A stretch of DNA of 64,000 nucleotides, taken from Rouxiella badensis. Lineage in GTDB: Bacteria > Pseudomonadota > Gammaproteobacteria > Enterobacterales > Enterobacteriaceae. Of this stretch, positions 43,588-58,494 are shown in pieces. Within the stretch, counting starts at the first letter, position 1. Each line of letters opens with the position of its first letter. The notes under the pieces were generated by a model that did not search any database, had not been told where the DNA came from, and worked only from the letters and a program-made list of their open reading frames with translations. The stretch spans positions 62,001-126,000 of the forward strand of contig NZ_MRWE01000001.1 of NCBI RefSeq assembly GCF_002093665.1, read 5' to 3'. Both the position numbers and the translations under genes were made by a program.

Positions 43588-44095
43588 TTAGACTTCAATC
43601 GACACAGAGATCTCTAACGTATCATCGACTTCAATGCCGAGATAACGCACTGTCTTTCCAGTTTCTTATGGCCTAATAGAAGTTAGATCACCCGGAGATG
43701 CTTGGTCTTCTTGTATATCAGGAAAGGTTTTGTTCTTCTCATAAAACGTGTGCTGTACAGTGAATCTTCGAGACCAAGCTTTGCTATCCACCCATGAAAA
43801 ATACAATGTATTGCTGGGTTGAAATGTGTTGGCAAGAATCGACCCGAGATTGGAACAAGTAGTCTTTACTGTGCAGATTGCCTCGCATTATTAGCGCTGG
43901 AACTGCTTCTCTTGTCCCTTTGGTTATCTCAAATTGGACGGAACTACCGGTTTTCTGCTGTAACACCGTTGCTCTGCTCGAAACAGAACTGCCATATGCA
44001 ACATCTGATACTTTAAGTTTTACCAGATCGCAGCCCCGAAGTTTACTGTCTAAAGCCATGTTGAACAGCGCTAGATCGCGCGTTTGCCTTCTAGT
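43588..44095 (-). pseudogene. Decayed tyrosine recombinase (phage/plasmid-type integrase)
   Basis: On the minus strand RDLALFNMALDSKLRGCDLV and KLKVSDVAYG begin a tyrosine recombinase catalytic domain. After FQSRVDSCQHISTQQY the frame breaks; HGWIAKLGLEDSLYSTRFMR and RRTKPFLIYKKTKHLRVI continue in a second frame, then LLLGHKKLE, and finally VRYLGIEVDDTLEIS in a third. The RRT-K and LGH..LE blocks with the later tyrosine are the family signature. The N-terminal part is missing. At least two frameshifts and a stop make it non-functional. Confidence 0.82.
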
Positions 44096-44321
44096 TCAAG
44101 TCTGATTCTAATCCCCCAGATAGGAGATATCTAAAGCGGTCTTTTTTGTCCGATGATACGGGCTTTGTTTCACGGTGCCGTTTTCATGCTCAAACCTCCT
44201 GCAATGTAGGAGATTTAAGTATGATTGTCCCTCATGAGCTATCTGCGGACATTACTTTTTGGATGAGTTGGTTTAGCAGCGTTAAAAAAACCACTAACAA
44301 TAAGCGGCTTTTTAATATAAA

Positions 44322-45116
44322 TCATTCAGAGTAGCACTGTTCCAGTGCCGGGAAGCTACCGCCTTTGACAGCGGCAATGTAGCTTTTAACCGCGCCCTGG
44401 ATGTTTTCCTCTCCCCTCATGAAATTTTTCACGAATTTTGGTGCCTTGCCGGTGATGCTCAGGCCAAGCATATCGTGAAGAACCAGTACCTGCCCGTCGG
44501 TGCCGGGGCCGATGCCGATGACCGGTATTGAAACCGCCTCGCTTAGCGCTTTTCCGAGCGAAACCGGTACTGCCTCGACCAGAACCATCACCGCACCCGC
44601 CTGCTCAAACTTTTTCGCGGTTTCGATCAACGCTTCTGCTTGCTTGCTGTCACGACCCTGAACCTTAAATCCACCAAAGACGTTAACCGACTGCGGAGTG
44701 AGTCCAATGTGAGCACACACAGGTATGCCGTTGCGCGTCAGTTGATGCACCGTGTCACACAACCACTCCCCGCCCTCAATCTTGACCATCTGAGCACCCG
44801 CCTGCATCAGTTGCGCCGAGTTGTGCAGGGCTTGCTCTGGTGAGGAACAGGTCATGAAAGAAAGGTCGGCGATGATGAAGCCACCGTTGTTTCCGCGCTT
44901 TACACAGGTCGTGTGATAAACCATATCTTCCAGTCTGACCGGCAGGGTGCTGTCATGGCCCTGCAAAATCATTCCTAACGTATCGCCGATGAGGAGCATC
45001 TCAACACCCGCCGTGCTCAGCTCGTGGGCAAACGTGGCGTCGTAGCAGGTAAGCATGGTGATCTTTTCACCGCGCTGCTTGAGGTTTTTCAGGTATGTCA
45101 GAGTGATTGATGGCAT
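44322..45116 (-). CDS. panB: 3-Methyl-2-oxobutanoate hydroxymethyltransferase (PanB)
   Basis: This 264-residue enzyme makes ketopantoate from 2-oxoisovalerate and 5,10-methylene-THF in pantothenate synthesis. Family blocks are intact: [58 protein letters not shown] and [20 protein letters not shown]. The length matches E. coli PanB (264 aa). No panC is next to it, whereas panB and panC usually form a pair. Its place between a dead integrase and IS3 remnants suggests a second, acquired copy. Confidence 0.92.
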
Positions 45117-45294
45117 GGTGTTCTCTGCTAACTCGTTGCATTAATAAAGGTGGTTGCGGGTGCGATAATACTGACTTTCGTAACGCTTAATTGTATTTCT
45201 CGATTTGCCAAATGCCTTCGAGCCCCGGCGTGCAGCAGCGCAGGTAGGGTACCTATTGCATGATATGTTGTTAATTATCCTGAATGGCCGCGCT

Positions 45295-45909
45295 TCAGAG
45301 AAACTGTTCTGCCAACAACAGAGCCGCAATAATAATCATCAGGCTGCCCGAAATCCGGCTGACATTCTGCGCCGCGCGTGGGCGCGTCCGAAGCACTGTG
45401 CCGGAGCCATAGCCCACAAGCAGGTAGACCACGCCGCAACTAATCATATGTACCAGCCCCAGCGCTATCATCTGCAGCGAAAGCGGCCAGGCGGCGTGGA
45501 CGTCGGTGAACTGTGGCAGCAGAGCCAGAAACAGCAGAAAGACCTTTGGATTAAGCCCGCTGATGCAAAAGCCCTTGAGCGCCCACTTCAGTCGCGAGCC
45601 GCTATCGTCACTCTGCCCCGCCGCCGGTGCGGGCGGGTGGCGGAGCATGCCTATGCCGATCCAGAGCAGATAGCCAGCCCCAGCTACGGTCAGGACGGTC
45701 AACACGCCCGGCACTCCCGTAATGACCGAGCCGACTCCCGCTGCCACTATGAGTGTTGCAACAAGATGGCCGCTCAGCATACCGGCAACTGCTGGTACAA
45801 CACGGCGTCCCTTGATGCCAGCTGAAATGGCGTAAGCCCAGTCAGCACCCGGTGTGATAACAAAAAGCGTGGAAACAGCCCAGAACGCGGCGAACATGCT
45901 CAATGACAT
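45295..45909 (-). CDS. LysE-family translocator
   Basis: This 204-residue inner-membrane exporter of the LysE/RhtB type has the N-terminal STLFVITPGADWAYAISAGI, GAGYLLWIGIGMLR, and GLNPKVFLLFLALLPQF, where the NPK motif is the family hallmark. About six membrane helices. Members export amino acids or homoserine lactones. It is divergent from the Lrp-family gene, the classical regulator-exporter arrangement. Confidence 0.88.
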   Translation of the reverse strand: MSLSMFAAFWAVSTLFVITPGADWAYAISAGIKGRRVVPAVAGMLSGHLVATLIVAAGVGSVITGVPGVLTVLTVAGAGYLLWIGIGMLRHPPAPAAGQSDDSGSRLKWALKGFCISGLNPKVFLLFLALLPQFTDVHAAWPLSLQMIALGLVHMISCGVVYLLVGYGSGTVLRTRPRAAQNVSRISGSLMIIIAALLLAEQFL

Positions 45910-46087
45910 GCGCCGTTATCCTTATTGACCCGACCTCTGACCTGCCCTTTATAAACGTCTGATACCTGCATATAGAGAAACCTTTACCTGAATATTTGCT
46001 TATAATTAAAGAAAGAATATCGCTTTTTATGCGGGATATGCTTTCATATTTAACTCAAAAATGTAAATAATCGGGAGGTTTTAATTA

Positions 46088-46540
46088 ATGGATAGGGCAG
46101 ACTGCAATATTATTGCTGAGCTTCAGCAGGACGGGAGGATTTCGCTCACTGACTTGGCAGAACGGGTTGGGATCAGCCTGTCATCCTGCCAGCGTCGTGT
46201 CAGAGCGCTTGAACAGGAAGGCGTGATCAGCGGCTACCGGGCGAATCTCGATCCGTCCCGATTCGGACTGAACTTTTCAGCCTTAGTCTTCGTTACCCTG
46301 CGCGAGGGAGATCGACAGACGGTCAGCGCCTTTGAGGCGACAGTAAAAGAGATACCGCAAATTATCCAGGCGCAGCGACTGTTTGGCGATCCGGATTATC
46401 TGCTTCACGTTATCACCCGGGACCTTCATGCTTTTCAGCAGTTGTATGATGAAAAACTCTCCGGTATGTCAGGCGTGCAGCGACTTACCTCAACGCTGGT
46501 TATGAAAACGGTCGTGAAAGATCGCGCGCTGCCTATCTGA
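46088..46540 (+). CDS. Lrp/AsnC-family transcriptional regulator
   Basis: This 150-residue regulator has an N-terminal HTH (IIAELQQDGRISLTDLAERV then GISLSSCQRRVRALEQEGVI) and a C-terminal RAM domain (FGDPDYLLHVITRDL). It is divergent from the LysE exporter with 178 bases between, so it probably controls that gene in response to an amino acid. The ATG is preceded by GGGAGG. Confidence 0.88.
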   Translation: MDRADCNIIAELQQDGRISLTDLAERVGISLSSCQRRVRALEQEGVISGYRANLDPSRFGLNFSALVFVTLREGDRQTVSAFEATVKEIPQIIQAQRLFGDPDYLLHVITRDLHAFQQLYDEKLSGMSGVQRLTSTLVMKTVVKDRALPI

Positions 46541-46871
46541 GGCGTTGCAGGACGTCAGATTCGATATCTTTAAAACGTTTTTTAGCGCGGAGAAACCGTT
46601 GTGCTGAGGATCTGTACAAAAGTCGAACTTCCGCTTCTGGCACACAGCAGACAAGCACGTGACGCTGAAGGTCTGCTGAGAGCGATGTATAGACTTTCAT
46701 ACCTGTTGAATTTGATGATAACGGGGAGATCCCAACTATCGAGTCAATCCTAAAAGCTAGGCCGCTAGCACGCCTTCTTACCTCATTTCTCCTCCAACTG
46801 TACACTTTGGTTATTTTATCCAGTGTCAGTAATCTTGACCTGCTCCCCGTTGATTAATACACCGTGATGTT
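46541..46871. other. Gap without a recognisable gene
   Basis: A minus-strand open frame covers part of it but has no family signature or ribosome site. The right end (TGACCCTGACCCC at about 46873) begins an IS3 remnant. Confidence 0.4.
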
Positions 46872-47220
46872 AGTGACCCTGACCCCGAATATGATCCAGT
46901 CATAATCAGGAATAACCGGCTTCATGTTGGTTGTGTCTTCTGGCAACCGGCAGACTTCTCAGCAAATTCTGACGGGGTCATCCAGCCCAGCGCAGAATGG
47001 GGACGCCTCTGGTTATAGTGTATGCGCCAGGCCTCGATTTTGCACCGTGCATCCTCCAAAGACATAAACCCGTTCTCGTTCAGACATTCCTGCCGTTGAA
47101 GGACTCCACCGTCGCGTTGTCCGTCGGTGTTCCCGGGCGTGACAAGTCGATTCTGATGCCTCTTTCGTACACCCATCTGTCCAGCATTTTCCCTACAAAT
47201 TCAGAACCATGATACCTATT
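46872..47220 (-). pseudogene. IS3-family remnant 1: end of orfB transposase
   Basis: On the minus strand the sequence reads YHGSEFVGKMLDRWVYERGI then SRPGTPTDNATVESFNGR, and after a small deletion/frameshift QECLNENGFMSLEDARCKIE, AWRIHYNQRRPHSALGWMTP and SEFAEKS. These are the last two catalytic blocks of an IS3 orfB transposase. The beginning is missing. The terminus GTGACCCTGACCCC recurs at 52795-52840. Confidence 0.82.
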
Positions 47221-47283
47221 TAGTGCATCCAGCTAGCGTTTAAGTCAGCTGTAAAGGACGTCTGAGCGCTATGCTATTCAGCA

Positions 47284-48039
47284 TTTCTGCCACTTATTTT
47301 GAACCCAAATTCTGCCCCACGCAGATCCCCAGGCATTCGCGGGTGTACAGGTCGATAACCGTCAGCAGGCGCAGTCGTCGCCCGTCAAACAACGCATCAG
47401 AGACAAAATCCATGCCCCAGACGTGATTCGGATACAGACCCTGAGGCTGCGGTTGCCAGCGCTGGGCCGATTTATTGCGGCGTGGCCGTTTGAGGCGCAA
47501 CGACAGACCCTGCTCACAGTAGAGGCGGTAGATTCTTTTGTGATTATCGCGCCAGCCTTCCCGCCAGAGCATCACGTGTACCCGGCGGTACCCGTAATGA
47601 ACCCGAATTTCGGTTATCTCACGGATGCGTAGCCGCAGTGCGCTGTCGTCGGCGACCACAGAACGATATCGAAACGAGCTGCGGCTGACCCGCAGCACAA
47701 AACAGACCTGTCTCTCACTGACACTGTAGCGGGCTTGCAAATCCCTGCCCCATTCGCGCAGGCATGCCAGCGTCAGTTCTTTTTTGCCAGCACGTCCTGC
47801 AGCATCGCCTTGTCAAGGCTCAGATCGGCAACCAGCCTCTTCAGCCGCAGATTTGCCTCTTCCAGTTGCCGCATATGCTTCAGCTCCGAAGGAGAAATGC
47901 CGCCGTATTTTTTACGCCACGTATAGAAAGTGGCACCCGAAATGCCCAGCTTGCGACAGACGTCCGGCACTGACGTACCCAGTTCAGCCTGCTTCAGGGC
48001 AAAAACAATCTGCTCTTCGGTGAATCGTGACTTTTTCAT
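47284..48039 (-). pseudogene. IS3-family remnant 2: orfA and the start of orfB
   Basis: orfA (47773-48039, 88 residues) is intact: MKKSRFTEEQIVFALKQAEL, the HTH KLGISGATFYTWRKKYGG and a leucine zipper, ending QDVLAKKN. orfB runs from about 47740 to 47294 (VSRSSFRYRSV, HYGYRRVHVMLWREGW, VWGMDFVSDALFDGRRLRLL, TRECLGICVGQNLG) and then breaks off at the join to remnant 1, losing about 35 residues. The catalytic core is therefore incomplete. Confidence 0.85.
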
Positions 48040-48114
48040 CGACACATCCTCCGTTCAGGGGAGTCAATATCATGCCGGAATTCTGTTTCTGAATGGCGCA
48101 GGATTTTGGGTCAG

Positions 48115-48304
48115 GGTTAAAACGACTTCGTGGATGCCGAAGCTATTTGTGAAGCTGCATCGTGTCCGTGAATCCCTGGTCTATTCACGCTGGCTGAATG
48201 AATACAACAGTAAGCGGCTCCATGAATCTCTGAATAACCTGACTCAGGAAGAATGCCTGCTGATGGCTGAGAAGACTGAAAACTCAAAAAGTGTGTGGAA
48301 TTAA
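48115..48304 (+). pseudogene. IS3-family remnant 3: C-terminal tail of a transposase, opposite strand
   Basis: The plus strand encodes YSRWLNEYNSKRLHESLNNL then TQEECLLMAEKTENSKSVWN and a stop. The W-N-YN-RPHESLNNLTPEE pattern is the end of an IS3 transposase of a different subgroup from remnants 1 and 2. Nothing upstream of it remains. Confidence 0.7.
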
Positions 48305-48600
48305 AACGAGTGTGCTTACAATCAGGGCTGCACTGAATGACGTTGAGAAAGACGCTTCTGGCTTTCGAAAGAAATGAATAAACTACAGAGCGGCGCGACC
48401 TAGGCCACGCGCGAATGTCACTGAAAAGATCTACAAACTTAAGTGGCGACACTTTTAAATTTGGACAAAAGGCAAAGAAATGCAAGAGGTGGCGCCTTAC
48501 ACTTATTATCCGGTTCCGGCGCTGTGGAATAAATGACCATTGAAGTTTCGAAACCGGAAAAATTCCTCGGAGCTTATCGACCAATTACCTCTTGGGCTGA
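48305..48600. other. Gap without a recognisable gene
   Basis: About 296 bases between IS3 remnant 3 and the DUF554 gene; no gene, terminator or repeat could be supported. Confidence 0.4.
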
Positions 48601-49320
48601 TTAAAAATGAATATAGCTGGTCCACAGATAGGAAATCGGCATCACCAATACTAGCGCAGGTAACATATTTGCTACCGGGAACAGCTTGATACCGCTAATA
48701 CGATAACCTGCGGCCAGCATCACCAGTCCGCCTGCCGCCGTAAAATCACCCATCATCGTGGGAGAAATCAGCGGCATGATAATACCGGCGGCGGCCACCA
48801 GGCAGAGCTGGATAATAAACTGTGGCACAGCTATCATAGCGACGGCATAACCCAGCGAGGTGGCGAAAATGGCGGCGGTAAAGAAATCCATGATGGTTTT
48901 AACCAGCAAAATCGATGGGCTACCGGTCATGCCTTCCGTCATCGCGCCAATAATGCCGGTGCCGCTGGCGCAAAACAGCACCAGTATGGCGACAAATTTC
49001 TCCTCAAATAACTCTGCGCTCATACCTTGCTTAGCAGGGGCTATTCGCTCAACCAGTTTTTTCGAAAATGCACCGAATTCACCAATCTTGCGTTCGAAGT
49101 AAATCAATTCGCCTATCGCCGCGCCAAGAATCAGCGCCAAAATTACCGCGGGCAGCGATTTGATTTTAACGATTAAAATAATGCCTAGACCAATCGAAGA
49201 AAGTCCAAAGGTTAAAGGCAGCGCGCAACGTAATCTTTCAGGTAAACGCGATCCCATGAAGGCGCCCGCCAGGCCGCCCAATACCACGGCGGCGCCATTA
49301 GCTATAGGCCCAATTAACAT
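48601..49320 (-). CDS. DUF554-family membrane protein
   Basis: This 239-residue membrane protein has about seven hydrophobic segments. GPIANGAAVVLGGLAGAFMG at the N-terminus and AGGLVMLAAGYRISGIKLFP followed by NMLPALVLVMP at the C-terminus are typical of DUF554 (YdfK-like) proteins, whose function is unknown. It is the third gene of a compact operon, 19 bases after the UbiX gene. Its position suggests a part in moving the aromatic acid or its product across the membrane; that is inference only. Confidence 0.8.
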   Translation of the reverse strand: MLIGPIANGAAVVLGGLAGAFMGSRLPERLRCALPLTFGLSSIGLGIILIVKIKSLPAVILALILGAAIGELIYFERKIGEFGAFSKKLVERIAPAKQGMSAELFEEKFVAILVLFCASGTGIIGAMTEGMTGSPSILLVKTIMDFFTAAIFATSLGYAVAMIAVPQFIIQLCLVAAAGIIMPLISPTMMGDFTAAGGLVMLAAGYRISGIKLFPVANMLPALVLVMPISYLWTSYIHF

Positions 49321-49339
49321 ATATACTCCTGATGAATGT

Positions 49340-49933
49340 TTAGTCTAAATTTTCTCTGGTCGTGTTATTTCTGTCGCCCCATCGCGGGAGGTCAGGCACG
49401 TCCAAATCAAACAAATCCAATGCGCGGCCTACGCTGTGCGTCACGATATCGTCGAGCGTTTCAGGGCGTTGATAGAAGGCCGGAACCGGCGGGAAAATAA
49501 TCCCGCCCATTTCAGTAATGCAACGCATATTGTTGATGTGAGAGAGATTTAAAGGCGTCTCTCGCACCATTAATACCAGCCGCTTGCGTTCTTTCAACAC
49601 CACGTCTGCGGCGCGAGTCAGCAGATTGTCGGTCAGGCTGTGCGCAATGGAACCTAAGGTATTCATTGAACACGGCGCGATCAGCATGCCGATCGTTTTA
49701 AACGATCCACTCGAAATCGTGGCGCCCAGATTGGTTATCGAGTGAATCTTGTCTGCCAGCGCGTTGACTTCCTGCCGCTGATAGTCGGTTTCCAGCGCGC
49801 GTGTAACTTCAGCTCCTCTGGACATCACCAGATGCACCTCGATGTCCATAGGTTTCAGCAATTGCAGGGCCTTAACACCATATTGAAAACCTGAGGCGCC
49901 GCTGATACCGATGATGATTCGCCGTGTTGTCAT
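49340..49933 (-). CDS. UbiX-family flavin prenyltransferase
   Basis: This 197-residue protein makes the prenylated FMN cofactor needed by UbiD-type decarboxylases. [20 protein letters not shown] is the N-terminal FMN-binding loop; [20 protein letters not shown] and the [13 protein letters not shown] block are family signatures. The length matches the PAD1/EcdB/KpdB group rather than a stray fragment. It starts 13 bases after the UbiD gene. Confidence 0.92.
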
Positions 49934-49946
49934 GACTCTTTACCTA

Positions 49947-51446
49947 TTATTTGAAGTCTGGAAGGAAGCGTTTAACGTCAACCTTTTTGAATTTGGAACG
50001 CTCAAAGTGATGTTTGAGATGGAACGGCACCGTGCAGTCAAAAATCACTTTGCACGAGGTGCCGACCTGCAACAGATGCGGACTAAATTCCGGCGTTTGC
50101 GACGGGTCGAGCGGGTGACAGCGCACGCCCGGGATGTTAATGGTGTCGATGTCACCCTGAAAACGAGTCTGCATCGCCCACAGCACGTCGTCGGTATCAA
50201 ACAAATCAACATCTTCATCCACCAGAATGACGTGCTTCAATTCCGGAAACGCCGAGAAGGCAAGCAGCGCAGCCTGACGTTGGCGACCTTCATCATTAAT
50301 CGAAGATTTTTTAAATTGCAGCACGGCCAAAAGCTTGCCGCCGCCCGAGGTGTGGGCATAGACATTGAGTAAACGTCCCGGCATTGCGCGCTCGACCATG
50401 TCAAGAATGCTGGCTTCGGTCGGGATCCCGGCCAGATTGACGTGCTCGCCGCTTGGCCCCAGTGTGGTTTGCAGAATCGGGTTTTTGCGGTGAGTGATAG
50501 CTTTAATCTTGATGACAGGCAGCTCGTCTTTTGACTCGCCGGTATAGCCCGGAAACTCAGGCATCGCCTTACCGGTGTTGGTGTTTTGATCCTCGCGGAT
50601 ACGCACGTTTGGCAATAACTCGCCTTCGATTACTATCTCTGCATGGGCGATAGCTTTTTCGTTGATGGTAATGCCGTTAACCAGCTCTACCGGATAGCCA
50701 CGCAACGCACCCGCAACGTTCAATTCGTCATAACCTAGTGGCGTAGTCGGTGGTTCGAAGCAGGCGGCGATACTGATAGCAGGGTCTACGCCGATACTAA
50801 TCGAAATCGGTAGCGGTTTACCGGCGGCCTCGGCCTTTTGGCGGAAAGCGTCAATGTGACGGCCCGGCGTCAACCACATGGTCAACTCATCGCGGCTTTG
50901 TACACACAGGCGGTGAATGGTGATATTGGACTCGCCCGTTTCCGGGTCAGAGGCGTAGCACATGCCCATGGTGAAATAGGGACCTGCATCTTCTTCGGTA
51001 TTAGTAGGCGCGGGCAACAGTGTGCGCAGGTCAAAATCGGAGTCGCTGGCAAGATGAATAACTTCTTGGCACACGGCTTGGCCGCGTTCAATGGTGACTG
51101 GAGGGATCGGGTTTTGTACGGAATCCTTTAATAGAAAGCCCAGTTTTTCAGGTTTGCAGTTCAGCAGATGTCCAGTACGTTCGCGGGTCGACAGAATGCC
51201 GGTCACCACGCGCACTCCCGGATAACCTTTGACATTGTTAAACATCATCGCCGGTCCTTTACGGGTTGGACGCTCACAGGTACCGCCTGCGCCAACATAG
51301 CGATAAACGCCGGAGAGTTCTGCTTCTGGGTCAACTTCTACATTAGTTTCTACGAATTCGCCTGGTAAGGTTTGCAGGAAATCAATAGCTGAACGAAGAT
51401 CGTGAACGGGTGACTCTTTTTTAGAATGGGTTGTATTTTTCATCAT
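49947..51446 (-). CDS. UbiD-family aromatic acid decarboxylase (AroY/gallate-protocatechuate type)
   Basis: This 499-residue decarboxylase depends on prenyl-FMN. It aligns closely with Klebsiella AroY (protocatechuate decarboxylase, 502 aa): AELSGVYRYVGAGGTCERPT, GPAMMFNNVKGYPGVR, DFDLRTLLPAPTNTEEDAGP, TIHRLCVQSRDEL (an active-site arginine), EIVIEGELLPNVRIREDQ (active-site glutamate), LVDEDVDLFDTDDVLWAM and CKVIFDCTVPFHLKHHFERS. It should convert gallate, protocatechuate or 4-hydroxybenzoate to the matching phenol plus CO2. First gene of the operon, divergent from a LysR gene. Confidence 0.88.
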   Translation of the reverse strand: MMKNTTHSKKESPVHDLRSAIDFLQTLPGEFVETNVEVDPEAELSGVYRYVGAGGTCERPTRKGPAMMFNNVKGYPGVRVVTGILSTRERTGHLLNCKPEKLGFLLKDSVQNPIPPVTIERGQAVCQEVIHLASDSDFDLRTLLPAPTNTEEDAGPYFTMGMCYASDPETGESNITIHRLCVQSRDELTMWLTPGRHIDAFRQKAEAAGKPLPISISIGVDPAISIAACFEPPTTPLGYDELNVAGALRGYPVELVNGITINEKAIAHAEIVIEGELLPNVRIREDQNTNTGKAMPEFPGYTGESKDELPVIKIKAITHRKNPILQTTLGPSGEHVNLAGIPTEASILDMVERAMPGRLLNVYAHTSGGGKLLAVLQFKKSSINDEGRQRQAALLAFSAFPELKHVILVDEDVDLFDTDDVLWAMQTRFQGDIDTINIPGVRCHPLDPSQTPEFSPHLLQVGTSCKVIFDCTVPFHLKHHFERSKFKKVDVKRFLPDFK

Positions 51447-51774
51447 ATTTCTCAGGTAAGTTTAAATAACCGTGGTGCGGAATTTAAATTACGCCGATAG
51501 AAATAAATTAAAAAATACCGTTTTAGTCTACGTCTAGATCATAAAAGTTGGAATAAACTATTCTTTGGGCAGATAAGTAACACAGTATTAACGATAGCAG
51601 AGTTTAATCAAGAAACGTAATGAAAGGTATAGCGCGCTCTAAAAAATTTACTTTAAAAGGTAAAGGCTTTAATTATAATTACTGTAATCAGGGAAGAGGA
51701 TGCCATTTCAGCGGCATTCCAGCGTCATTATTTAATGACAGTATAGAATAAAAAGTCTTAGATCGGAGTCATCC
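51447..51774. promoter_or_regulatory. Divergent control region, decarboxylase operon and LysR gene
   Basis: This is 328 AT-rich bases with no gene. It must contain both promoters and presumably the LysR binding site; I could not pick out one convincing T-N11-A box. Confidence 0.45.
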
Positions 51775-52677
51775 ATGGATCTCAAAAGAATGCGCTACTT
51801 CTGTACCATCGTCGAGCAAGGCTCTATCAGCCATGCGGCGCGGGTATTGAACATGGCGCAGCCGCCGCTTAGCAAGCGCATGCAGGAGCTGGAAGCCGAG
51901 ATAGGCGCACCGCTTTTTGATCGCACTAACCGAGCGTTAATACCTACAGAGGCGGGAGTTTATCTTTATCAAAATGCTAAAGAGATCCTTAACAATATTG
52001 ATAATATCAGGCTGCAAACCTTATTAATCGCCAGTCGCAATAAAAAGATTATCAGAATTGGTATTTCCTATCTTTTCCTCTCCTACTTCAGCAGTTTTAT
52101 TCATAAGCTCAGCCAGCGCTATCCTGAAATAGAAATAAATATCTCGGTTGCCGACTCAAGTCATCTCGAGTTCTTACTGGTGCAGCGAATTATTGATATT
52201 GCGTTAATTCAAAAGCCGAAAATGACAAAAGCCTTTGATGTCATTGAAATGGGGCCAATGAAGCTTGTGGCGGTTATTGCCAAAAGTTTACTGCCCGAAA
52301 AGCCCAGGAAAAGTATTACCCTAGAAGCGCTGACGCGTTTTCCACTGGTGTTATTGCACCGCGCGGGCGGTAATGGCACTTTTGAAGTATTGATCGATAG
52401 CCTGCACAAATATGCCCATGAAATAAACGTGATCATGCAGGTTTCAGAGCCTCGCCTGATTATTGAACTGTTCAATCTTGGCGTCGAAGCTGCAACTTTA
52501 TTGCCTGCTTCCGAGGTCAATTCAAAAAATCTATATAACTATCATGTGGTTGATGTTGCCTCACCGCCCTCACTGTTTGTGCCGATGGTAGTGAGGCTTA
52601 CGCACGTTATCGGTAATCCAACTATTAATGAAATATGGGAGTGGGGTTTAGAATTGCAATCTAAAGGCAGCTTTTGA
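51775..52677 (+). CDS. LysR-family regulator of the decarboxylase operon
   Basis: This 300-residue LysR regulator has MDLKRMRYFCTIVEQGSISH and ARVLNMAQPPLSKRMQELEA, a standard LysR winged helix. The effector domain is IRIGISYLFLSYFSSF onward. It is divergent from the UbiD-UbiX-DUF554 operon, so activation of that operon by an aromatic acid is the natural inference. GATCGGAG precedes the ATG. The gene is noticeably more AT-rich than the backbone genes. Confidence 0.87.
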   Translation: MDLKRMRYFCTIVEQGSISHAARVLNMAQPPLSKRMQELEAEIGAPLFDRTNRALIPTEAGVYLYQNAKEILNNIDNIRLQTLLIASRNKKIIRIGISYLFLSYFSSFIHKLSQRYPEIEINISVADSSHLEFLLVQRIIDIALIQKPKMTKAFDVIEMGPMKLVAVIAKSLLPEKPRKSITLEALTRFPLVLLHRAGGNGTFEVLIDSLHKYAHEINVIMQVSEPRLIIELFNLGVEAATLLPASEVNSKNLYNYHVVDVASPPSLFVPMVVRLTHVIGNPTINEIWEWGLELQSKGSF

Positions 52678-52789
52678 ACTTCAATTTCTAGATCAAAATC
52701 ATGCGCTTCGCTTACTGCGCGGCGGCGCAGTAAGCCCAAAGAGGCGCAGTCTTTACTGAACCCCAGATCCTGGACAATTCCAGAATGTG

Positions 52790-52900
52790 GGGTGCAGTGA
52801 CCCTGACCCTGACCCTGACCCTGACCCTGACCCTGACCCCGTACATGATCCAGCCATAATCAGGAATAACCAGCTTCATTCTGGCTACCTGCCAATTTTT
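52790..52900 (-). repeat. IS3 end remnant with expanded hexamer repeat
   Basis: Seven perfect tandem copies of TGACCC (52798-52839) lead into CGTACATGATCCAGCCATAA and on to GGAATAACCAGCTTCATTCTGG. The same end without the expansion (two hexamers) is at about 46870-46930 in IS3 remnant 1. No transposase sequence remains here. Confidence 0.8.
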
Positions 52901-52926
52901 CAGTAAATTCGAAAAGGCATTTTTAG

Positions 52927-53737
52927 GGTTCTGTCGCATTAAGACGTCGTGAGGTAACATGCTGTTTTTTTTACGATGTTGCCTGACCATATCCCTGATC
53001 CGAAAATCTTTCCAACGCCTGCATTATCCCCCCGATGTTATCGCCCAGTGTGTTCGCTGGTATCTGGCGTATTCCCTGAGCCTCCGTAATCTGGAAGAGA
53101 TGATGGCCGAGCGCGGCATTGTTGTTGATCATTCGACGCTTCACCGTTGGGTCATCCGCCTGGTGCCCCTGTTGGATAAGGTGTTCCGACGGTATAAACG
53201 CCCGGTGGGTCGACGCTGGCGAATGGACGAAACCTACATCAGAGTCAGAGGGCAGTGGAAATACCTGTACCGGGCCGTCGATACCGCAGGGCAGACCATC
53301 GATTTCCTGCTGACCGCCAGGCGGGATGCCGGCGCAGCACTGCGCTTCTTTCGTAAGGCTATTCGCCACCACGGTGGGCCAGAAAGGGTAACCATTGATA
53401 AAAGTAGCGCCAATACGGCAGCGTTGGCCACACTCAATGCCGACAAACCCGATGAAGAAAGCATCACGATCAGGCAGAACAAATATTTGAACAACCTTGT
53501 GGAGCAGGATCACCGGAACATCAAACGACGAACGCGACCCATGCTGGGATTCAAATCATTCCGGCGGGCACAGACCATACTTGCGGGTATTGAGCTGGTA
53601 AACATGATCCGTAAAGGACAGCTTCATCATCAAGCTGGCGAAGGATTGTCGTCTGCAGAACAATTTTATCTGCTGGCAGCCTGAAAAAACAGGTAGCGCA
53701 GATTTCATCATCTTCACTCCGTTAACGCGACAGAACC
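52927..53737 (+). mobile_element. IS6-family insertion sequence, copy B (811 bp)
   Basis: It has the same inverted ends (GGTTCTGTCGC/GCGACAGAACC), length and orientation as copy A. The flanking 8-mers ATTTTTAG and GGTGGGTT do not match each other, nor do they match those of copy A. The right end runs straight into the body of an MFS gene. Confidence 0.92.
52959..53684 (+). CDS. IS6-family transposase, copy B
   Basis: Identical in sequence to copy A except for one isoleucine-to-valine change near residue 49 and a change of the likely start ATG (MSLIRKSF) to ATA. Translation would have to start at the upstream ATG at 52959 (MLFFLRCCLTISLIRKSF), giving 241 residues, or not occur efficiently. 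The catalytic residues are all kept. Confidence 0.85.
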   Translation: MLFFLRCCLTISLIRKSFQRLHYPPDVIAQCVRWYLAYSLSLRNLEEMMAERGIVVDHSTLHRWVIRLVPLLDKVFRRYKRPVGRRWRMDETYIRVRGQWKYLYRAVDTAGQTIDFLLTARRDAGAALRFFRKAIRHHGGPERVTIDKSSANTAALATLNADKPDEESITIRQNKYLNNLVEQDHRNIKRRTRPMLGFKSFRRAQTILAGIELVNMIRKGQLHHQAGEGLSSAEQFYLLAA

Positions 53738-54947
53738 GGTGGGTTCCGCCACACCGATAGGCGTGCTATTTGGCGCGTTGATGGCCGGCTATCTCGGCGA
53801 TCGCATTGGCCGAAAAGCCGTGATGTGTTGGGCGCTCGCCATCTACTGCGTCATGACGCTGTTTGCCGCCCTCGCCCCCAACTACCCGAGCTTCCTGATT
53901 GCCAGGATCCTCGCGGGTGTGGGCGTGGGCGCCGAGAGCGTAATTATTGCGCCCTATCTGAGCGAGTTTATCCCGCCGAAAAAACGTGGCTGGTTTATTG
54001 GCGCGCTGGCCGGGTTCTTCTCGTTTGGCTTCGTCGGGGCGGCATTGATCGGCCGCTTTATCGTGCCGTCGTTCGAGGACGGCTGGCGCTGGGCGCAGGT
54101 GATGACCGCGCTGCCTATTGTGATGCTGCTCTGGTGGCGTCGCAGCCTCCCGGAGTCACCGCGCTTTCTGCTTAACCGTGGTCGAGTGAAAGAGGCAACT
54201 CAGGTCATTGAAAATCTTGAGAAAAAGGTCGAGCGCGCCCTCGGACGCCCGTTGCCTGCCGTCCCGATTCAGACCGAAGCCACTGAGGTTGAAACCTCGA
54301 CTCCGCCGCTCGGCTTTTTCGAGTCGATCGGCATGATGTTTACCGCCAGCATGCGCAAGCAGACGGTGGTCATCTGGCTCATCTGGTTTGTGGTCACCTT
54401 CTGCTATTACGGCTTTTTCGCCTGGATCCCGTCACTGCTCATCGCCAAGGGCTTTACCATCACCAAAAGCTTTGAATTCTCTATTATTATTTATCTGGCG
54501 CAGATACCGGGCTATTTCTCGGCGGCGGTGCTGTCAGACCGGCTGGACAGGAAGCACACCATCGCACTGTATCTGATAGGCGGCGCGATCAGCGCGTGGT
54601 TCCTCAGCCAGTCGGGCAGCCACGTGTCGATAGTGACGTCCGCCGCAGTGCTGTCGTTCTTCCTGAACGGTGCGTACGCGGGCCTTTATGCCTACACGCC
54701 GGAGAGCTTCCCTACCGCTATCCGCGCCACCGGTTGTGGTTTTGCCAGCGCCTTTGGCCGCATTGGCAGCATTCTCGCGCCAAGCATTATCGGGGTGTTT
54801 TCCGCCTCGCTGGGCTTTGCCGGGGTGTTCACCATGACCACCAGCATTTTGGTCGCAGGGGTGATTATCGTGGTCGCGTTTGGCGCAGCGACCAAAGGAA
54901 AATCACTGGAGAAAATTACCTCATCGGTAACAGAAATAACGCCTTAG
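53738..54947 (+). pseudogene. MFS transporter, 5' end removed by IS copy B
   Basis: The frame is open from the IS border and reads GSATPIGVLFGALMAGYLGD, RIGRKAVMCWALAIYC, ARILAGVGVGAESVIIAPYL and SLPESPRFLLNRGRVKEA, with a C-terminal half of about six helices (PESFPTAIRATGCGFASAFG). Comparison with full-length members suggests that roughly the first 60 residues, including membrane segment 1 and the usual start, are lost. A GTG at 53739 could start translation but has no ribosome site. It belongs to the metabolite transporter branch near NiaP/AraJ-type sugar-porter-like MFS. Probably non-functional. Confidence 0.8.
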
Positions 54948-55120
54948 CGTAAAGCCTCCCCATCATCCCCCTAGGGCGGTGCCTTCTCGCCCGCCCCTGG
55001 GGCACGATTTATCCCGCGCGCACCGTATCACCCTCCTTAAACGCAATCAGCAACAGCTCATTACTGCACCTTTACATCATAAATACACAAAGCGAACGAT
55101 TCTCAACACTTATTTGCATT

Positions 55121-55139
55121 GATAACGATAATCGTTATT
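55121..55139. promoter_or_regulatory. Fur box upstream of the siderophore receptor
   Basis: GATAACGATAATCGTTATT matches the 19-bp Fur consensus at 16 positions, by eye. It lies about 100 bases before the receptor start, in the expected promoter area. This implies iron repression. Confidence 0.85.
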
Positions 55140-55236
55140 GATAGCATTCTCATGAAAGTTATTTCAAATTACTTCTAATTATTTTTAAAACAACACAGCG
55201 CGCTTCTTGTCAGCAACGGAATGGTCCTGCTCAGTG

Positions 55237-57525
55237 ATGAAAAATATCCTGTTTTATACCAAGGTCACCTTATTTTCCGTGACCTCTTTTAGCCTGCTTA
55301 TGCCAACACTTTCCCAAGCCGAGCAAACAACAACCCTTAAAGAGGGAGATAATAAACCGCTCGTAGACAGCAAAGAGAAAAAACAGAAGGACGAAGACGA
55401 CACCATTACGGTGACCGCACAGCAACAAACCCTGCAAGCGCCGGGCGTCTCTATCATTACTCAAGACGAAATCAAGAAACACCCGCCGGCGCGCGACCTG
55501 GCCGAAATTATCCGTACCATGCCCGGCGTTAACCTGACCGGTAACTCCACCAGCGGCCAGCGCGGCAACAATCGCCAAATCGATATTCGCGGTATGGGCC
55601 CGGAAAATACCCTCGTGCTGATCGACGGCATGCCGGTGACCAGCAAGAACTCCGTGCGCTACGGCTGGCGCGGCGAGCGCGACAGCCGCGGTGACACCAA
55701 CTGGGTACCGCCAGAAATGGTGGACAGCATTCAGGTCATTCGCGGTCCTGCCGCCGCACGCTACGGCAGCGGTGCAGCAGGGGGCGTCATCAACATTATC
55801 ACCAAGCCAACCACCCCAGACTGGCACGGCACCTTCAATACCTACATGGATGCACCAACGCATAAATCCGAAGGCGCAACCAAACGCTATGACGCGAGCC
55901 TTTCAGGCGGCCTCACCGATACGCTGAGCTTTAAACTTTACGGCGGCTGGTCTAAGACTCAGGCCGATGCGCAAAACATCAACGCTGGCCATGAAGCCGC
56001 GCGTACCGGCTCTTACGCTGGAACAGTGCCTGCGGGTCGCGAAGGGGTGAAAAACGAGAACGTTAATGGCGTGCTGCACTGGGCTTTTGCGCCTAAGCAG
56101 GCGTTGGAACTCTCTGCGGGCTACAGCCGTCAGGGCAACCTGTACGCGGGGGATACGCAAAACACCAACTCCAACGCGCTGGTGACCGCCAACTATGGCA
56201 AGGAAACCAACGTACTTTACCGTCAGACGCTGAGCCTGAAACACACAGGAAGCTGGGATAACGGCGTATCGACCACCAACTATATTCAGTACGAACGCAC
56301 CCGTAACAAACGTATCAACGAAGGCCTCGCGGGCGGTACCGAGGGTATATTCAGCACCACCAATCAAGGGTTCTCTACCATTGATTTGGCCGACGTCAAC
56401 GCACATACCGAAATTAACGTGCCGCTCGATTTCTTCGTTCACCAAACCGCGACCTTCGGGGCGGAATGGAACCAGCAGCGAATGAAAGATCCAACCTCTA
56501 ACACGCAGACCGCACAGGCCGGCAGCGTTGAGGGTATATCGAGCACCGGCCGCAGCCCCTATTCTTCCGCCGATATCTATTCCCTGTTTACCGAAGACAA
56601 TATCGAGCTGACCGATACCACCACCGTGACACCGGGCCTGCGTTTCGATTATCAGACCATTACCGGCAAGAATTTCAGCCCGTCCCTGAACCTCTCGCAG
56701 GAGCTGGGCAGCGACTTCACGCTGAAAATGGGTATCGCGCGTGCCTACAAAGCGCCAAACCTGTACCAGACCAACCCTAATTACCTGCTCTACAGCAACG
56801 GTCAGGGCTGCTACGCCAGCGCCGGTTCATGCTATCTGCAGGGTAATAAAGATCTCAAAGCGGAAACCAGCGTCAACAAAGAGATTGGCATCGAATATCA
56901 CCACAATGACGTTCAGGCCGGGTTGACCTACTACCGTAATGACTACCACAATAAGATTGAAGCGGGCTACGCGTCGGAATATTCCATCAGCAGCACCTCT
57001 GACGTTTACAAGTGGGAAAACGTGCCGAAGGCTGTGGTTCAGGGTATCGAAGGGACGCTCAACTTCCCGATCAGTGAATCTGTCGCCATGCGCAACAACT
57101 TCACCTACAACATCGAGAACGTGAACAAGACCACCAACGACTATCTGTCGGTTATCCCGAAATTCACCATCAACTCGACGGTGGATTGGCAGATACGCGA
57201 CGACTGGTCGATGAGCGGAACCATGACCTGGTTCGGCAAGCAGAAGCCGAAGAAGTATAACTACAAAGGTGAAGATGCGACCGGATCCGAAACCTGGGTC
57301 GTCAGCCCTTACGCACTGTTTGGCTTGACCTCGACCTATACGGTGAACAAGTTCCTGGACGTGACGGCGGGTATCGACAACGTGCTCGACAAACGCCACT
57401 TCCGTGAAGGCAATGCGCAGACCACCGGCAACTCTACCACCGGCGCTTACCTCTACGGCGCAGGTGCCAACACCTATAACGAATCAGGCCGCGTGTTCTT
57501 TATGTCTTTGGGTATGCACTTCTGA
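55237..57525 (+). CDS. TonB-dependent catecholate siderophore receptor (FepA family)
   Basis: This 762-residue outer-membrane receptor begins with a signal peptide (MKNILFYTKVTLFSVTSFSL, then LSQA). DDTITVTAQ is the TonB box. The plug domain (LQAPGVSIITQDEIKKHPPA, TMPGVNLTGNSTSGQRGNNR, DIRGMGPENTLVLIDGMPVT, PPEMVDSIQVIRGPAAARYG) is very close to E. coli FepA. A 22-strand barrel follows, ending in the terminal phenylalanine of GMHF. It would import ferric enterobactin or related catecholates. No siderophore synthesis or esterase genes are beside it. I chose the start at 55237 over 55207 because of the signal peptide. Confidence 0.92.
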   Translation: MKNILFYTKVTLFSVTSFSLLMPTLSQAEQTTTLKEGDNKPLVDSKEKKQKDEDDTITVTAQQQTLQAPGVSIITQDEIKKHPPARDLAEIIRTMPGVNLTGNSTSGQRGNNRQIDIRGMGPENTLVLIDGMPVTSKNSVRYGWRGERDSRGDTNWVPPEMVDSIQVIRGPAAARYGSGAAGGVINIITKPTTPDWHGTFNTYMDAPTHKSEGATKRYDASLSGGLTDTLSFKLYGGWSKTQADAQNINAGHEAARTGSYAGTVPAGREGVKNENVNGVLHWAFAPKQALELSAGYSRQGNLYAGDTQNTNSNALVTANYGKETNVLYRQTLSLKHTGSWDNGVSTTNYIQYERTRNKRINEGLAGGTEGIFSTTNQGFSTIDLADVNAHTEINVPLDFFVHQTATFGAEWNQQRMKDPTSNTQTAQAGSVEGISSTGRSPYSSADIYSLFTEDNIELTDTTTVTPGLRFDYQTITGKNFSPSLNLSQELGSDFTLKMGIARAYKAPNLYQTNPNYLLYSNGQGCYASAGSCYLQGNKDLKAETSVNKEIGIEYHHNDVQAGLTYYRNDYHNKIEAGYASEYSISSTSDVYKWENVPKAVVQGIEGTLNFPISESVAMRNNFTYNIENVNKTTNDYLSVIPKFTINSTVDWQIRDDWSMSGTMTWFGKQKPKKYNYKGEDATGSETWVVSPYALFGLTSTYTVNKFLDVTAGIDNVLDKRHFREGNAQTTGNSTTGAYLYGAGANTYNESGRVFFMSLGMHF

Positions 57526-57530
57526 TATAA

Positions 57531-57558
57531 AAAAGGGCCATCGCTTGATGGCCCTTCT
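57531..57558. terminator. Bidirectional terminator between receptor and dusC
   Basis: AAGGGCCATC/GATGGCCCTT hairpin with an A run on the left and a T-rich run on the right, between two convergent genes. Confidence 0.88.
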
Positions 57559-57561
57559 CTT

Positions 57562-58494
57562 TTACAAACGCTGAATCGCGAGCGCGATATCTTTCGAGGT
57601 ATTCAAGGTTCGCACCTGAGTAAACACCTCCGTTGCCTCGCTGTACTCTTTACGCAAATATCCTAGCCACTGCTTGATGCGCGCCACGTGATACAAACCG
57701 GTGTCACCCTGCTTTTCAAGATAAGTGTACTTTTTCAACAGCGCGATGACCTGTGGCCACGGCATCTTCGGTTCATTATATTTAACCACCCGGCTAAGGT
57801 TTGGCACGTTTAGCGCGCCTCGCCCAATCATCACCGAGTCACAGCCAGTCACCTGCATACACCGCTGGGCGCTGGCATAATCCCAAATTTCACCGTTGGC
57901 AATCACCGGAATGCTCAGTCGTTGGCGAATCTCACCGATCGCCTGCCAGTTGATGCGCTCCGCCCGGTAGCCGTCCTCCTTGGTGCGACCGTGGACCGTA
58001 AGCTCCGTCGCACCGGACTGCTGCACCGCGTCGGCTATCTCGAGGCTATGAGCCAGTGAGTCCCAGCCGAGACGAATCTTCACCGTAACCGGCAGGTCAG
58101 CGGGCACCGCCTCACGCATCGCCTTCGCGCCGAGATAGATAAGCTCTGGGTCTTTCAGCAAGGTAGCACCGCCGCCGCTGCCGTTCACCGTCTTGGACGG
58201 GCAGCCACAGTTTAGGTCCACGCCGTAAGAGCCAAGTTCGATAGCTCGTGCGGCATTCTCACCCAACCATTCGGGATATTGCCCCAGCAGCTGGACCCGG
58301 ACCCGCGTGCCGGACGGCGTGCAGCTTTCGTTAAGCAGTTCGGGGCAGAGACGGTAAAAGGACTTAACCGGCAACAGTTGGTCGACCACGCGTAAAAATT
58401 CGGTGATACAAAGATCGTAGTCGTTTACTTCGCTGAGAAGTTCACGCACCAGAGGATCCAGTACGCCTTCCATCGGAGCCAGTAATACACGCAT
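57562..58494 (-). CDS. dusC: tRNA-dihydrouridine(16) synthase
   Basis: This 310-residue FMN enzyme reduces U16 of tRNA. It matches E. coli DusC (315 aa): [60 protein letters not shown] (with the catalytic cysteine) and [21 protein letters not shown] chose the start at 58494, where homology begins; ten extra in-frame codons upstream are not supported. It closes the dld/pbpG/dusC neighbourhood of E. coli on the right. Confidence 0.95.

Follow-up and report, generated by a model that had tools for sequence, protein, structure and literature searches.

The systems closest to the locus described here include the classical VdcBCD/KpdBCD hydroxyarylic acid decarboxylase operons and the gallate system of Lactobacillus plantarum. 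The former have a UbiX and UbiD pair in common with our locus, but also a subunit D, which our operon lacks and which the host genome carries in a separate B-C-D operon. For L. plantarum, PMC4600210 and PMC8772861 describe lpdB-lpdC-lpdD and lp_2943 (GacP), that is, a UbiD/UbiX gallate decarboxylase accompanied, as here, by a candidate membrane transporter, and report that the system is induced by the acid. There, lpdC lies apart from lpdB and lpdD and LpdD is present, unlike in our operon with its missing D.

Our window is a 64,000-nucleotide stretch of Rouxiella badensis DNA (contig NZ_MRWE01000001.1, positions 62,001 to 126,000). On its minus strand, a UbiD-family decarboxylase of the AroY/LpdC type (499 aa, 49947..51446), a UbiX flavin prenyltransferase (197 aa, 49340..49933) and a DUF554 membrane protein, the proposed transporter (239 aa, 48601..49320), form a tight operon with gaps of 13 bases between UbiD and UbiX and 19 bases between UbiX and DUF554. 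The second gap (49321..49339, minus strand) contains AGGAG upstream of the DUF554 ATG, a putative ribosome-binding site. Both the operon and its 19-base gap thus stand as first read from the sequence. In profile searches, UbiD matches PF01977 (194.5 bits) and has the N- and C-domains (PF20695, PF20696); UbiX matches the Flavoprotein domain PF02441 (140.9 bits) and, at 219.4 bits against a curated cut-off of 108.9, the flavin prenyltransferase model TIGR00421; DUF554 matches PF04474 at 203.7 bits, the Pfam gathering cut-off being 25.1. A LysR-type regulator (PF00126 and PF03466; 51775..52677, plus strand) is divergent from the operon across 328 bases (51447..51774), by position presumably a shared control region. 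Relatives of this regulator occur near UbiD in many linked loci, either divergent or downstream, and it likely controls the operon. A promoter and terminator scan of 48000-53000 gave hits no more numerous than in shuffled sequences.

The solved structures closest to the window UbiD are the Klebsiella AroY protocatechuate (3,4-dihydroxybenzoate) decarboxylases 5o3m, 5o3n and 5ny5, and the match to 5o3n (690.7 bits, residues 9-497) indicates a full-length relationship to AroY, the member compared of the AroY/LpdC hydroxybenzoate decarboxylases. In this sense the enzyme is roughly AroY-like, as the sequence-only reading had it. AroY 5o3m, however, matches the lone UbiD of a Klebsiella LysR-UbiD locus (L084), which has neither UbiX nor DUF554 annotated within 6 kb and lies on the other side of the UbiD tree, where DUF554 is found in 0/8 rows (rows below 550 bits dropped; L015 and L164 labelled linked by hand and the decayed L167 and L168 labelled "no"; L016/L159, L019/L163, L050/L160 and L090/L165 each being the same place twice). 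Nor is the window UbiD a classical C subunit, since it scores 471.1 against a VdcC (NF041204) cut-off of 650. The claimed absence of D beside UbiX and UbiD was borne out. No LpdD-like PF21758 match was found in the host genome, and its single VdcD match (100.4 bits) sits on another contig (C33), close to a VdcC that scores 763.5, above its threshold of 650, and a VdcB that at 279.7 stays just short of 290. The accompanying idea that DUF554 takes the place of D has to be rejected, because four Bacillota loci (L052, L055, L069 and L076) possess DUF554 together with an LpdD-like gene, and because the host has its separate B-C-D operon. The LpdD-like gene in these loci is a cluster whose representative matches PF21758, a family that we take, from its description, to be LpdD.

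The linkage of DUF554 to UbiD is by no means confined to this strain, a restriction that would have refuted the earlier reading; it extends to Gamma-, Beta- and Alphaproteobacteria and to Bacillota. Of 79 related UbiD loci in Pseudomonadota and Bacillota, 51 have DUF554 no more than 1.5 kb from UbiD. These loci are not a random sample, having been picked for their UbiD similarity as the best 80 of 271 confirmed. The other 28 have no DUF554 within 1.5 kb, although some contigs are short; among them, L015 has one 3.8 kb away and L059 a distant one at about 6 kb. In the DUF554 tree, L059 carries the label "linked" on account of a distant UbiD paralogue at 1.5 kb, and it falls in the other branch. 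In an evenly drawn family sample (one genome per genus, 109 genomes), DUF554 adjoins UbiD at 13 of 19 places with at least 66% UbiD identity, leaving six without it, and at 0/10 below 66%. Plasmids show the same division, with linkage in 16/32 records at or above 66% and 0/28 below, as matched by eye in the 60 of 403 records listed. Conversely, DUF554 mostly occurs without UbiD. Pfam detects it in 62 of the 81 genomes sampled from Bacillota, the phylum to which G207, the source of a Paenibacillus locus, belongs, and UbiD or UbiX lies within 1.5 kb in none of the 30 best-scoring, hence not random, DUF554 loci of that sample; in the order sample, one of eight DUF554-bearing genomes shows the linkage.

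Could the adjacency reflect chance inheritance or hitch-hiking on mobile DNA, with no shared function? Insertion-sequence-type genes flank the window operon on both sides, and copies reside on plasmids. We nevertheless regard this explanation as very improbable, given that gene order differs across phyla: besides UbiD-UbiX-DUF554, UbiD-DUF554-UbiX occurs in L052, L069, L071, L075 and L076, UbiX-DUF554 is divergent from UbiD in L055, and UbiX is divergent from DUF554-UbiD in L068. Moreover, UbiD and DUF554 divergence is correlated (Mantel r 0.775, with 0/5000 permutations as high, for 28 non-redundant loci of 55). The DUF554 tree left out L096 and L088, a partial copy of the window gene. Joint decay likewise speaks against hitch-hiking. 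Three of the 13 linked family-sample places have broken genes (G121, G198 and G123); in G121 and G198 the genes decay together, while the G123 assembly, in which lysS and recJ are also broken, may be error-rich.

Elsewhere, UbiX and DUF554 are both lost, with UbiD kept, in L159, L163 and L207, whereas in L158 the UbiX-DUF554 pair is kept and UbiD is not detected. Such joint loss and retention could point to a UbiX-related role for DUF554, namely that it aids delivery or maturation of the prenylated flavin cofactor, in the manner of LpdD, instead of transporting a substrate. We consider this improbable: an LpdD-like gene is already present alongside DUF554 in the four Bacillota loci, L164 combines DUF554 and an adjoining UbiD with no UbiX in the stretch read, and an integral membrane protein would make an odd chaperone for soluble enzymes. 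In G112, only short remnants of UbiD and UbiX are left, and DUF554 and LysR keep full-length frames.

The wider neighbourhood offers clues to the substrate. An Escherichia albertii plasmid carries YhbP, UbiD, UbiX, DUF554, idi and tannase together, an E. coli plasmid has the cassette with a short tannase frame, and in Neorhizobium idi lies near the operon. The plasmid loci that add idi and tannase likely constitute a tannin-to-pyrogallol cassette, and the tannase neighbours suggest gallate as the substrate in some relatives.

What, then, does the DUF554 protein look like? The sequence-only reading gave it seven helices; the hydropathy count agrees, but in the AlphaFold2 model (mean pLDDT 92.3) we read eight, if residues 136-184 are taken as two helices and 102-132 as a single helix with a break, and if 75-91 is not counted as crossing the membrane. 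Polar residues N8, E71, E76, K141, D145 and N218 are kept in at least 90% of each DUF554 branch. No solved structure with a sequence match was found, and a Foldseek search with the model yielded nothing at an E-value of 0.001 or below. In structural alignments, however, the eight top-ranking entries are all ZIP proteins (BbZIP where named), with Z of 6.6-9.0, values that, by the tool's own caution, helical models often reach, and the next entry at 5.2; the top one spans 178 residues at 4.3 Å with a Z of 9.0. This resemblance raises the idea that DUF554 imports a metal ion, such as Mn2+, for the UbiD-prFMN site. We think this unlikely. At the sequence level, there is no Pfam match to ZIP (PF02535), and hhalign gives a probability of 0.6 over 22 columns with a ZIP profile built from 17 sequences from ZIP loci of the sampled genomes (one of them, L183, an opposite-strand frame and probably not ZIP). 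The conserved charges include a lysine, K141, and among the residues that 90% of linked DUF554s share there is no His. Control by a metal or other riboswitch is also not supported, as no Rfam riboswitch family reached threshold in 44000-58000 of the window, or the gathering threshold in 40 DUF554 loci taken with 1.5 kb on either side. All of these 40 are non-UbiD-linked; 30 belong to the phylum sample, and the order and family samples supplied the other 10. The Rfam matches in the 40 loci were tRNAs and small RNAs.

Metal import is further disfavoured by what stands beside UbiD when DUF554 is missing. Another protein with at least six transmembrane helices lies within 3 kb of UbiD in 6/52 loci with DUF554 against 12/27 without it (Fisher p 0.0017), and within 300 bases in 0/52 against 5/27 (p 0.0036), in a comparison of loci from the best 80 of 271 confirmed that ignores kinship, uses cut-offs of our choosing and includes unrelated genes (KdpA at L049). 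Those identified include the MFS, FUSC, EamA and sodium:sulfate-symporter types, some of them organic-anion transporter types. At the Paraburkholderia locus L034, a fusaric-acid-resistance-like FUSC protein is encoded between UbiD and UbiX, as might be expected if DUF554 were purely an efflux protein guarding against the acid, or against pyrogallol or catechol and their quinones, inside the cell. Yet MFS and sodium:sulfate-symporter types also adjoin UbiD, and sequence gives no direction of transport; pure efflux therefore seems to us an unlikely, if slightly better, candidate than metal import.

Taken together, the evidence makes it reasonably probable that DUF554 is a transporter in a phenolic-acid decarboxylation pathway with UbiD, UbiX and LysR, carrying acid in and/or phenol out. 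This reading draws, indirectly, on the transporter-type proteins beside UbiD in some DUF554-lacking loci, the survival of DUF554 next to LysR after the loss of UbiD and UbiX, and the conserved charged residues of a membrane protein. In such a pathway, LysR would sense the acid, UbiX would make the prenylated flavin cofactor, and UbiD would turn a hydroxylated benzoic acid, with gallate the likeliest candidate and protocatechuate a possible one, into the matching phenol, with DUF554 presumably moving the acid inward and/or the phenol outward. In the most attractive version, which by analogy with the physiology of L. plantarum lp_2943 we hold possible but doubtful, electrogenic exchange of acid anion for phenol together with proton-consuming decarboxylation would generate proton motive force.

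The linkage gives a concrete and cheap hypothesis, phenolic acid/phenol transport, to a family for which the accessible literature on DUF554 and yqgA yielded no assigned function. It may also concern E. coli, whose DUF554 protein YqgA is 54% identical over 236 columns to the window protein. Of 5426 complete E. coli genomes, 5375 contain a DNA match to DUF554. Almost every polar position that is conserved among linked DUF554s is shared by the YqgA group, T154 being Cys or Thr there, but YqgA is encoded outside UbiD operons, in E. coli PMV-1 between speC and tRNA-Phe. A review names yqgA and aaeX among the genes that have raised expression in urine biofilms and take part in forming biofilms (PMC8882828), and yqgA is down in wood-vinegar-treated E. 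coli (PMC11592125); both reports are too indirect to bear on function. More speculatively still, and with somewhat less confidence than in the exchange itself, DUF554 might constitute a new secondary-transporter family, its helices arranged in a ZIP-like way but with a Lys/Asp/Glu site that takes organic anions in place of a metal site. Its UbiD-linked branch would exchange phenolic acid for phenol and so couple tannin breakdown to proton motive force in Gram-negatives; YqgA would belong to the same branch, having lost the decarboxylase and still handling phenolic acids or phenols.

If the exchange is real, energy conservation by phenolic-acid decarboxylation would extend from lactobacilli to Gram-negative bacteria. 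For decarboxylation-coupled precursor/product exchangers, one would look for a transporter gene in the decarboxylase operon; here a membrane protein, putatively a transporter, is encoded in the operon. In L. plantarum the proposed transporter lp_2943 belongs, according to PMC4600210, to the IT superfamily, whereas the candidate in the window is DUF554.

The UbiD, UbiX and DUF554 genes, all three confirmed by Pfam, lie in that order on the minus strand at 48601-51446, separated by 13 and 19 bases; an AGGAG read in the sequence precedes the DUF554 start. The sequence-only reading had described just such a UbiX-UbiD pair followed by DUF554 after 19 bases, and had the D subunit missing from the operon. 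Both points are borne out, the second because a genome-wide profile search gave no match to LpdD-like PF21758 and the sole VdcD match of the genome is on another contig, C33, close to matches to VdcC (763.5, passing the cut-off of 650) and VdcB (279.7, slightly short of the cut-off of 290). The host therefore carries a classical B-C-D operon separate from that of the window. According to PMC10865409, LpdD is a prFMNH2-binding chaperone that reportedly matters little, if at all, for the decarboxylation of gallate, though it raised LpdC activity without UbiX co-expression. A further UbiD, 69% identical to that of the window, lies on contig C57 without DUF554 nearby, and contig C10 has the usual kind of UbiD match; the only DUF554 match in the genome is the window gene itself.

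When a collection of species genomes was scanned with UbiD, the best 80 of 271 confirmed matches yielded 79 loci, and in 51 of them DUF554 lies no more than 1.5 kb from UbiD. Linked loci number 38 of 43 in Enterobacterales, 2 of 7 in Burkholderiales and 7 of 21 in Bacillota (Caryophanales 2/8, Eubacteriales 2/7, an unnamed order 2/4, Acidaminococcales 1/2); Neisseriales, Pasteurellales, Aeromonadales and Lysobacterales contribute 1/1 each, and the remainder 0/4. In Paraburkholderia tropica (L015), DUF554 adjoins a UbiX 3.8 kb off on the opposite strand. Among 109 genomes of the window's family, one per genus, DUF554 adjoins UbiD in 13 of the 19 places where UbiD identity is at least 66%, versus none of 10 below 66%; three of the 13 contain broken genes (G121, G198 and G123, the last possibly an error-rich assembly). 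Among the plasmid records listed (60 of 403, matched by eye), linkage was seen in 16 of 32 at or above 66% and in 0 of 28 below. The linked operon is rare in E. coli, its plasmid type occurring in 2 and its chromosomal type in 5 of 5426 genomes, 5375 of which have a DNA match to DUF554. An order sample of 99 genomes holds DUF554 in 8 and a UbiD of the window kind in 4, both at one place only in the window's genome. In the phylum sample of the Paenibacillus genome G207, 62 of 81 genomes have DUF554, and neither UbiD nor UbiX lies within 1.5 kb of it at any of the 30 best-scoring loci. DUF554 is mostly away from UbiD, and linkage is a trait of one branch of the family, not of DUF554 at large.

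The 120-row DUF554 tree is deeply split, 30 phylum-sample rows without UbiD neighbours together with L059 standing opposite an 89-row branch in which 63 rows are linked and the rest are the YqgA group and a handful of further unlinked rows. E. coli YqgA (L206), encoded between speC and tRNA-Phe and 54% identical to the window DUF554, clusters with 8 unlinked rows; this cluster is nested within a supported group of 17 rows, 6 of them linked. The polar positions N8, E71, E76, K141, D145 and N218 are at least 90% conserved in linked, YqgA-group and other DUF554 proteins, whereas S119-G-T-G, E129, D134, R207, K212 and W233 are common to the first two and differ wholly or partly in the other group. 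Given these shared positions, YqgA probably handles a substrate similar to that of the linked proteins.

UbiD-DUF554 linkage is no frozen block. Besides UbiD-UbiX-DUF554, we found UbiD-DUF554-UbiX (L052, L069, L071, L075 and L076), UbiX-DUF554 divergent from UbiD (L055), DUF554-UbiD with UbiX divergent (L068) and, at L164, UbiD-DUF554 where UbiX was not found nearby. With two decayed loci scored as lacking DUF554, the UbiD tree has 15 label changes for linkage, of which branches with good support require at least 10. In a set of 28 linked loci free of redundancy, UbiD distances correlate with DUF554 distances (r 0.775, a value reached in 0 of 5000 permutations). The DUF554 of a Neorhizobium plasmid (L208) is 92% identical to that of Stenotrophomonas (L045), which suggests recent transfer between classes.

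Decoupled loci show what DUF554 does not need. In G112 (L156), the DUF554 and LysR frames are full-length, and between them only about 30 residues of the UbiD start and about 50 of the UbiX end are recognisable, which resembles an internal deletion; this genome has another UbiD elsewhere (61%). G169 keeps UbiX and DUF554 with UbiD broken, and G074 has UbiX-DUF554-YhbP, UbiD being undetected in the stretch. A role of DUF554 on the UbiX side finds its best argument in L159, L163 and L207 (Rahnella aceris pRAHAQ01), from three genera, where UbiD is kept and UbiX and DUF554 are both missing. Reduced genomes (0.6-1.2 Mb) of the window's family (L173, L174 and L175) keep a UbiD of the window kind at 55-58% identity, and on the 14.6-kb plasmid NZ_CP010908.1 (L211) of Ca. 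Pantoea carbekii, a symbiont of stink bugs, UbiD is one of nine annotated features; the stretches read at these loci have no UbiX or DUF554.

In 25 loci a NUDIX/idi gene (cluster c4, one member profile-scanned) lies close to UbiD and could supply DMAPP for UbiX, which the linkage fits. Many of these loci are at the lysS-recJ chromosomal site, which idi occupies in E. coli as well, but idi is annotated beside the operon on plasmids too (L001, L208 and L210). A YhbP-family or related small protein (NF002900 in the two members scanned) recurs near UbiD/UbiX operons, at L001:3910-4422, L007, L026, L037, L038, L040-L043, L158, L208, L210 and C33 of the window's genome. Its Neorhizobium member matches PNPOx_N, a flavin split-barrel, and the protein may serve UbiX by reducing or handling flavin.

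Among solved structures, the window UbiD is nearest to AroY protocatechuate / 3,4-dihydroxybenzoate decarboxylases (5o3n, 690.7 bits). This likeness does not fix its substrate, because the Klebsiella pneumoniae UbiD of L084, an end-to-end match to AroY 5o3m (1142.9 bits) found with LysR and without UbiX or DUF554, groups in the midpoint-rooted UbiD tree with forms from lactobacilli and enterococci, 8 rows altogether, none of which DUF554 adjoins. Tannase neighbours of relatives favour gallate as the candidate substrate. The E. albertii plasmid pEA36_2 carries YhbP, UbiD, UbiX, DUF554, idi and a 584-aa tannase (PF07519, 431 bits), and in E. coli pSCU-111-1 the tannase frame that accompanies UbiD-UbiX-DUF554-idi is just 257 aa long. 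Within about 8 kb, a tannase (PF07519) is also encoded in Mangrovibacter L009, and phmmer finds tannase-like frames in L010 and in Rahnella L003-L006. Lonepinella koalarum (L041) also has the operon.

Upstream of the window operon, a divergent LysR gene (51775-52677) is followed by an IS6-family element (52927-53737) whose inverted ends are 16 nt long. The element abuts, and cuts at its 5' end, an MFS aromatic-acid-type transporter gene (53739-54947), which is probably broken since about 57 N-terminal profile positions are missing. A FepA-family TonB-dependent siderophore receptor is encoded close by at 55207-57525, and iron is bound by pyrogallol and catechols; but in Pantoea-type loci the TonB receptor is another one, followed in L028 by a HemS gene, so there is no consistent link to the operon.

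Ignoring the relatedness of loci, another protein with at least six predicted TM segments occurs within 3 kb of UbiD in 12 of 27 loci without DUF554 versus 6 of 52 with it (p 0.0017), and within 300 bases in 5 of 27 versus 0 of 52 (p 0.0036). Such neighbours, where identified in DUF554-less loci, include FUSC between UbiD and UbiX (L034), MFS (L040, L079 and L050), EamA (L049, whose count also includes an unrelated KdpA) and sodium:sulfate-symporter types (PF00939; L067 and L064), which fall in the broad IT superfamily that also holds Lactobacillus plantarum lp_2943. According to PMC4600210, restated in PMC8772861, adding gallate to gallate-induced L. plantarum cells generated a membrane potential and a pH gradient, and lp_2943 was the only ion-transporter gene to be induced. 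By analogy, DUF554 could bring the gallate anion in and move pyrogallol out.

The AlphaFold2 model of the window DUF554 (52 sequences; mean pLDDT 92.3, pTM 0.86) had no Foldseek match in the PDB at E 0.001 or better. With a second structural aligner, ZIP entries fill all eight top rows (Z 6.6-9.0, the next row 5.2), the best alignment spanning 178 residues at 4.3 A. This likeness is a hint only, since helical models often reach such Z, and profile comparison found no DUF554-ZIP homology. ZIP metal ligands sit on the two middle helices; the DUF554 model helices taken as their counterparts (102-132 and 136-158) carry the S119-G-T-G break and K141/D145. A Lys in place of the metal-binding set would be a better match for an organic anion than for a metal.

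The literature searched, partial and mostly outside subscription papers, gave no function for DUF554, yqgA, ydfK or PF04474, and by title or abstract no paper that uses the term DUF554 concerns this subject; searches for work on AroY/UbiX operons, gallate transport or UbiD gene context likewise turned up nothing about DUF554, which at that coverage does not establish absence. Decarboxylase operons that include their transporter are a known kind of system; what is new here is a candidate transporter from a family of unknown function.
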